64,000 nucleotides of DNA from Thermococcus sp. AM4 (GTDB taxonomy: Archaea; Methanobacteriota_B; Thermococci; Thermococcales; Thermococcaceae), in contig NC_016051.1 in assembly GCF_000151205.2 (NCBI RefSeq), positions 186,001 through 250,000 on the forward strand. The letters are read 5' to 3'. Positions within the stretch are counted from its first letter, which is position 1; every line of letters starts with the position of its first letter. The translations under genes and the position numbers were made by a program. Under the pieces are notes generated by a model, which had not been told where the DNA came from, did not search any database, and saw only the letters and a list, made by a program, of their open reading frames with translations. Of the stretch, positions 183 through 15,442 are shown one piece after another.

Positions 183-238
183 GGCGATGACGAGCCTCAC
201 GGTAGCTGAAGAATGATGAGGGGTATACTGACCGAGCC
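183..238 (+). ncRNA. Box C/D sRNA candidate with variant C and D boxes
   Basis: In order: terminal stem GGC (183-185), box C ATGACGA (187-193), 12-nt guide (194-205), box D' CTGA (206-209), 3-nt spacer, box C' ATGATGA (213-219), 12-nt guide (220-231), box D CCGA (232-235) and GCC (236-238), which closes the stem. This is the geometry of archaeal 2'-O-methylation guides bound by L7Ae, Nop5 and fibrillarin. C'/D' are canonical; C and D each carry C where U is expected. Ten of the 12 guide nucleotides before D' are complementary to UACCGUGAGG, a conserved 23S rRNA segment. No guide target was recognised for the D box. Confidence 0.8.
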
Positions 239-273
239 GTTAGGCTTTTATCCTTCCCTTCTTGAAAGAAACC

Positions 274-330
274 GAGCGATGACGACCTCTAGGGTATCTG
301 ACAAAATGATGAGAGCCAAGGGCCGAGCTC
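274..330 (+). ncRNA. Second box C/D sRNA candidate with the same variant boxes
   Basis: Terminal stem GAGC (274-277) with GCTC (327-330); box C ATGACGA (279-285); 12-nt guide (286-297); D' CTGA (298-301); spacer CAAA; C' ATGATGA (306-312); 10-nt guide (313-322); D CCGA (323-326). It lies 35 nt after the first sRNA and repeats its unusual combination of a C box with C at position 5 and a D box with C at position 2, with different guides and a different terminal stem. The 3' end overlaps by 2 nt the end of the convergent gene at 329-670. Targets of the two guides were not recognised. Confidence 0.78.
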
Positions 331-14870: not shown

Positions 14871-15374
14871 ATGAAGTACCGGTACCGAGTGCTCTATTAC
14901 ACCTATCCCTCGGAGCCTGAAGTTCTCTCGCGGCTGAAGGAAAAGCTCAAAAACTACACACTCCTCATTAACCCCGACAAGACTTCCCTCTATGATGCCC
15001 TTCTAATGACGGCCGCGACGAGCGGAGAAGTAATCATCGTGAAGTCTGGGGAGACGTTTCTCGTAGCACCGTTTCAGGAGGTTCCGCCCGGCTGGAGCTC
15101 GGGTGAGGAGTTTCTGGTTGGGAAGGAGAGGGGCCTTGAGAAGGTGGCGGAAGATATTGTCGGGAGAGACCAGAGAAGCACCGCCGTGAAAGGCTTTGTG
15201 ATAGCTGGCCTCGTTCTCATCGCCCTCTACGCTAGCTACCTCTATCACGTTCTGGATCTCGTCAACAACGTTTTCTTCCTCGTCGGTCTCATTCTAAGCC
15301 TCTTTGGTGGTCTGTTGCGGGGCTATCGGAAGAGAAGGGTCAGAGCATCGGCTCCTCATCACACCTCAGAGTGA
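14871..15374 (+). CDS. Hypothetical protein with two C-terminal membrane spans
   Basis: 167 aa. The soluble N-terminal part (MKYRYRVLYYTYPSEPE, LYDALLMTAATSGEVIIVKSGETFLVAPF) is followed by two membrane segments, GFVIAGLVLIALYASYLY and VFFLVGLILSLFGGLL, and a basic, probably cytoplasmic tail RGYRKRRVR. No signal peptide or catalytic motif is seen. A TTTTTATT element lies about 28 nt upstream, giving a short leader. Not recognised; likely a Thermococcales-specific membrane protein. Confidence 0.7.
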   Translation: MKYRYRVLYYTYPSEPEVLSRLKEKLKNYTLLINPDKTSLYDALLMTAATSGEVIIVKSGETFLVAPFQEVPPGWSSGEEFLVGKERGLEKVAEDIVGRDQRSTAVKGFVIAGLVLIALYASYLYHVLDLVNNVFFLVGLILSLFGGLLRGYRKRRVRASAPHHTSE

Positions 15375-15442
15375 GGGAAACTGCTCATCATCCCCCACAA
15401 CGTTGGAGTAGCCTTTTAAATGCCTTTGCCCGAGGTTGAGTG

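Follow-up and report, generated by a model that had tools for sequence, protein, structure and literature searches.

Do two adjacent guide RNAs that lack the U-U pair in their terminal k-turn represent a separate class of RNA, or ordinary guides in a variant form? Box C/D k-turns have been described as strongly U:U at position 3b:3n, and are said to have evolved so that they do not fold in the absence of protein (PMC5689011). The window, the 64,000-nucleotide stretch of DNA from the 2.09-Mb genome of Thermococcus sp. AM4 that was analysed here, carries two such RNAs near its start, sRNA1 and sRNA2. Neither follows the RUGAUGA/CUGA consensus with U-U at 3b·3n, since both have C·C. Most probably, although not with certainty, they are ordinary guides in which the two bases of 3b·3n drift together among a number of accepted pairs, with C·C arising more often in GC-rich genomes.

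Two tandem C/D box sRNAs

The first-pass annotation had placed two tandem C/D sRNAs at 183-330. They were found at 183-238 and 274-330, with the boxes exactly as it described, and their features are as follows, together with a third sRNA of the window used for comparison.

183-238, + strand: sRNA1, C/D box sRNA of the sR51 family (RF01305); Rfam match of 56.9 bits, 47 orthologs read in Thermococcales loci
187-193, + strand: sRNA1 box C, AUGACGA, with C at position 5 (3b); from the sequence
194-205, + strand: sRNA1 D' guide, candidate target 16S C1083 (T. kodakarensis numbering); from rRNA match
206-209, + strand: sRNA1 box D', CUGA; from the sequence
213-219, + strand: sRNA1 box C', AUGAUGA; from the sequence
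220-231, + strand: sRNA1 D guide, predicted target Um1218 of 16S rRNA (T. kodakarensis numbering); from rRNA match
232-235, + strand: sRNA1 box D, CCGA, with C at position 2 (3n); from the sequence, the overlapping CTGA at 228-231 being rejected
274-330, + strand: sRNA2, C/D box sRNA, ortholog of T. kodakarensis sR38; orthologs in about 80 genomes, circular junction in T. kodakarensis (PMC9014305)
279-285, + strand: sRNA2 box C, AUGACGA, with C at position 5 (3b); from the sequence
286-297, + strand: sRNA2 D' guide, CCUCUAGGGUAU; conserved order-wide, no target assigned
298-301, + strand: sRNA2 box D', CUGA; from the sequence
306-312, + strand: sRNA2 box C', AUGAUGA; from the sequence
313-322, + strand: sRNA2 D guide, unconserved; no significant rRNA match
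323-326, + strand: sRNA2 box D, CCGA, with C at position 2 (3n); from the sequence
15337-15395, - strand: third C/D sRNA, canonical U·U, for comparison; Rfam RF00095 at 49.8 bits, and sequence

In full, sRNA1 reads GGC (183-185), G, ATGACGA (187-193), a 12-nt guide, CTGA (206-209), AGA, ATGATGA (213-219), a second 12-nt guide, CCGA (232-235) and GCC (236-238). Similarly, sRNA2 reads GAGC (274-277), G, ATGACGA (279-285), a 12-nt guide, CTGA (298-301), CAAA, ATGATGA (306-312), a 10-nt guide, CCGA (323-326) and GCTC (327-330). Both thus have boxes C, D', C' and D in the order that defines the class, with two guides of about 10-12 nt each. The GA dinucleotides of the tandem G·A pairs are intact in all eight boxes, terminal and internal, and the internal motifs are canonical (AUGAUGA and CUGA in both RNAs), as the first reading had held. 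Its view that position 5 of box C faces position 2 of box D as 3b·3n agrees with the established nomenclature (PMC4382518, PMC5689011). The terminal stems GGC/GCC (sRNA1) and GAGC/GCUC (sRNA2) bring boxes C and D together and are retained in orthologs. Compared with the archaeal box C/D k-turn of A. fulgidus (PMC5689011), the two RNAs share the tandem G·A pairs, the 3-nt bulge and 4b:4n = G:C, but have C·C in place of U:U at 3b:3n and C:G in place of G:C at -1b:-1n. Minimum free energy folding was uninformative (z of 1.19 and 0.30), as expected of k-turn RNAs, and a sigma-70 promoter scan was set aside as irrelevant to archaea.

In sRNA1 a canonical CTGA at 228-231, overlapping the end of the D guide, was rejected as box D; it gives no stem and an 8-nt guide, and is absent from orthologs. 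The T. kodakarensis ortholog (CATACTGGCCGA), located at 1167377-1167425, has no overlapping CTGA, and orthologs of this kind retain CCGA. CCGA is therefore the real box D, being the sole choice that closes the stem, as had been claimed, and the one that leaves a 12-nt guide complementary to 16S rRNA. This guide pairs with 16S rRNA at 12/12 positions (one G-U), and none of 150 shuffled guides did as well, so that Um1218 is its predicted target. The D' guide pairs at 11/12 positions around the candidate C1083, a match equalled by 6/150 shuffled guides and hence weak support. The Rfam match of sRNA1 to sR51, a Pyrococcus C/D sRNA, reached 56.9 bits with an E value of 4.9e-10 in a search of the entire window (gathering threshold 38 bits). 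It aligns across 56/56 positions, with the same box order, D guide and spacing; the consensus of RF01305 is U·U (AUGAuGA/CUGA), whereas sRNA1 is C·C.

Two further observations concern sRNA1. In some species (L029, L052, L054-L059) the D' guide is swapped for a GCYCYRGAGTGG-like guide and the D guide is kept, apparently a switch of one guide's target. Just upstream, at 103-147, lie two palindromes, ACTACTGCCCCAGTAGT and AACTTCTGCCCCAGAAGTT, an element occurring once in the window. A similar element (CCCCAGTAGTTAACTACTGGGGCAGAAGTTATAA) stands at the same site in some relatives and is missing in others (loci L005, L006, L014 and L018), a distribution that suggests a small mobile palindromic element or a promoter insertion.

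No single Rfam family was matched by sRNA2 above threshold. Its ortholog in genome G024, which we take to be T. kodakarensis from the agreement with published sRNA coordinates, lies at 1167284-1167333, inside the published sR38 circle (junction 1167276-1167338). The two RNAs are alike in D' guide, synteny beside sRNA1, stem and C·C boxes, and differ in the D guide and the D'-C' linker; circularity is established for T. kodakarensis only (PMC9014305). Candidate rRNA targets of sRNA2, and likewise 23S C2543 as a candidate for related Pyrococcus guides, were rejected as no better than those of shuffled guides, and matches to the guide complement were no more numerous than with a reversed control. 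That the two loci are sRNA pseudogenes in decay, or motifs arisen by chance, is hardly credible. The unconserved, targetless D guide of sRNA2 and its overlap with the stop codon of a convergent gene (329-679, - strand) would fit such decay, but the D' guide, boxes and stems are conserved across the order, sR38 gave 11,287 reads in T. kodakarensis, with 106 circular reads (PMC9014305), and sRNA1 is a strong Rfam match.

The surroundings of sRNA2 also vary. Among its orthologs (for example L004, L005, L007, L022 and L065) the D'-C' linker spans 3 to 24 nt, and the long linkers contain an inverted repeat (such as GTCCGTG...CACGGC), so that a stem may take the place of the K-loop to give a full internal k-turn. 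The tandem is interrupted by about 1.2 kb in one genome (G040 C2, L062) and by 3.6 kb in another (G039 C6, L064), apparently through insertions between the two sRNA genes. The convergent gene encodes 116 aa, and its relatives, 54-71% identical, come from contigs assigned by binning to Aquificota, Hydrogenothermaceae and Nautiliaceae, a pattern suggestive of exchange between vent microbes or of faulty binning.

The 3b·3n pair within and across genomes

Coupling of the two positions was measured with an unbiased genome pattern, which admitted any base at 3b and 3n under a purely mechanical filter. This gave 55 matches, of which 54 were used, sRNA1 being entered with CCGA as box D. The 34 matches with a D' box comprised UU 14, CC 11, GC 4 and one each of CT, AT, AG, TG and TA, with no U·C, and the two positions were coupled (permutation p = 5e-5); the 20 matches without a D' box behaved as background (p = 0.45). 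The C·C pattern had 11 matches in this genome versus none with a reversed control. Curated lists also show the coupling, in T. kodakarensis (p = 3e-4), G012 (p = 1e-4) and G006 (p = 4e-4). The internal C'/D' pair is likewise coupled, with CC and GC in place of UU in three of four genomes; sRNA1 and sRNA2 keep it canonical, while other sRNAs carry C·C or G·C there.

Across 94 Thermococcales genomes the U/C counts were UU 948, CC 302, CU 142 and UC 34, with an odds ratio of 59, all uncorrected for shared ancestry and with some chance matches among them; the tests within genomes are less exposed to this ancestry effect. Pattern searches of Thermococcales, where the first-pass annotation had proposed a covariance search for RTGACGA paired with CCGA, uncovered a large, genus-wide class. 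The coupled C·C change occurs in about one-third of the guide RNAs recognisable across the genus, so 3b and 3n evolve together and are not fixed. Outside Thermococcales, the C·C pattern was found in none of 21 other genomes of the phylum, irrespective of recognisable C/D sRNAs there.

Such a pattern might be ascribed to pure mutational drift, that is, GC-biased U to C change that strikes each box separately and involves no structural coupling. C·C is indeed commoner in GC-rich genomes, its share following locus GC, as estimated from 2-3 kb loci, with a Spearman coefficient of 0.65 across the order (n = 87); inside genus g1 alone the relation is weak (rho 0.22, p = 0.09). A member of the Pyrococcus genus with a locus GC of 0.56 (G012) has 6 C·C sRNAs versus 0-1 in its relatives. 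Changes also occur one side at a time, as drift would have it. However, if the two positions were independent, about 105 C·C and 231 U·C would be expected across the order, where 302 and 34 were observed, and the association is highly significant among unrelated sRNAs within single genomes. Nor would G·C, A·U and C·G pairs co-arise through GC bias alone. Drift without coupling is largely refuted by the within-genome tests, and we consider it very unlikely.

How the two sRNAs change state

The orthologs of both RNAs occupy many 3b·3n states. For sRNA1 (n = 47) these are CC 21, GC 14, CU 5, CG 3, UU 3 and GU 1; for sRNA2 they are AU 30, CC 29, CU 7, CG 5, AG 3, GU 3 and one each of GC, AC and AA, with no UU. 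At the outer stem pair -1b:-1n, 126/127 of these orthologs have C:G. Loss of the terminal stems, which the first-pass annotation had named, together with independent drift of the C and D boxes, as counting against it, was not seen, and its suggestion of a tolerated variant class is borne out by the genus-wide C·C, the strong coupling and the stems that are kept. Its other suggestion, that a paired change in adjacent guides is meaningful in itself, fails. Among the 43 genomes in which both sRNAs were read, both are C·C in 7, and others have such combinations as C·C with A·U or G·C with C·C. The idea that the two neighbours change in concert was rejected, the states being taken independently; because neighbours switch state independently, the matching changes are no special event.

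A rough single-locus tree showed no enrichment of simultaneous double changes (4/30 changed branches for sRNA2, p = 0.15; 0/11 for sRNA1). State changes were mostly one-sided, via C·U, C·G or G·C, so that change proceeds by single steps such as these. One C/D family (CCCTTGCCCAG...GTATTAGCTGA; G000:1827-1875 and orthologs) has retained C·U, an asymmetric pair, at 3b·3n in most Thermococcales. Since C·U is stable in this widely conserved family, neither U·U nor C·C is strictly required, and U-U at 3b·3n is a consensus, loosely kept across Thermococcales. With U·C rare, the likely order of steps is UU, CU, CC. A C-U pair lowers L7 affinity and an A-U pair does not, according to Kuhn 2002 as cited in PMC6461891; as reported there, the result agrees with the A·U orthologs and is less easily squared with the family in which C·U is stable. 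C·C thus appears as one among several accepted 3b·3n pairs, and an account of C·C alone would be incomplete.

Tolerance of C·C and protein-free folding

Departure from U·U goes with a stronger terminal stem. In this genome C·C sRNAs have a mean stem of 4.75 bp, all of at least 3 bp, against 2.53 bp for U·U sRNAs (p = 0.0008), several of which have stems of 1-2 bp. In T. kodakarensis the values are 4.2 and 3.0 (p = 0.035). The L7Ae protein is nearly identical, with few residues different, in the four genomes compared, and remains near-unchanged between genera; no specialised L7Ae was seen in these four, so an adapted protein is not needed.

The ordinary-guide reading accommodates these facts as follows. 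Both RNAs would be archaeal C/D box 2'-O-methylation guides in a normal guide RNP, and the terminal C/D motif would form the usual L7Ae-binding k-turn, with C·C replacing U·U after the tandem G·A pairs. L7Ae would recognise the sheared G·A pairs and the bulged U, leaving the next pair to be only mutually compatible; 3b·3n could therefore drift within a restricted set, which in Thermococcales appears to comprise U·U, C·C, G·C, A·U, C·G, C·U and A·G. C·C would preserve a pyrimidine-pyrimidine pair, the strong stem that accompanies departure from U·U may compensate for it, and GC-rich genomes would arrive at C·C more often.

Published folding rules predict that protein-free folding of C·C k-turns should differ from that of U·U. 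The same position has been studied systematically in a Kt-7 variant series (PMC4382518, PMC4914095), in which 3b = C variants fold in Mg2+; those are ribosomal Kt-7 constructs, whereas the window RNAs are natural C/D sRNAs. Kt-7 with 3b = C can fold in metal ions, provided that 3n is not G (PMC4382518), the other main requirement being -1b:-1n = C:G (PMC5689011), and known C-C k-turn structures belong to the N1 conformational class, U-U ones mostly to N3 (PMC4914095). C·C sRNAs might accordingly form a functionally distinct subclass that folds in metal ions before L7Ae and whose RNPs assemble or circularise unlike those of U·U sRNAs. Both window RNAs agree with these Lilley sequence rules, having -1b:-1n = C:G and 3b = C without 3n = G, and C:G at -1b:-1n is found in 9/12 C·C sRNAs here and 5/5 in T. 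kodakarensis; the difference from other sRNAs is weak, however (p = 0.24 and 0.04 respectively), and 4b:4n = G:C, present here, impairs ion folding. The C·C sRNAs sR28, sR31, sR38 and sR41 of T. kodakarensis are expressed and circularised (PMC9014305 Table 1), yet circularity there (4/5 C·C versus 9/21, p = 0.32) does not differ significantly. In addition, one sRNA family switches freely among C·C, A·U and G·C, opposite folding classes by the rules, and the ease of passing between C·C and Watson-Crick states speaks against strong selection on protein-free folding. A distinct subclass is thus unlikely. A more specific form, which we hold to be quite unlikely, has two kinetic classes, in which U·U k-turns await L7Ae and strong-stemmed C·C k-turns pre-fold in ions (N1), assemble first and are preferentially circularised; if true, it would go against the idea that selection keeps box C/D k-turns unfolded in the absence of protein.

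The individual RNAs are of known kinds, and C·C members are present in published catalogues, the available text of which passes over them without comment. A full-text literature search, with older Pyrococcus sRNA papers outside its scope, found no report of the 3b-3n coupling, its scale or its association with the stem. SnoReport 2.0 demands that the U-U pair contain at least one U (as described in PMC7994747), and finders with this requirement, or requiring RUGAUGA/CUGA, would miss the C·C class. About 90 genomes amount to a natural mutagenesis of 3b·3n, in which real guides have arrived at coupled C·C, G·C, A·U and C·G pairs, so that the selection hypothesis can be tested directly. The longer stems found in C·C members likewise suggest that one half of the k-turn is traded off against the other, an idea open to testing.
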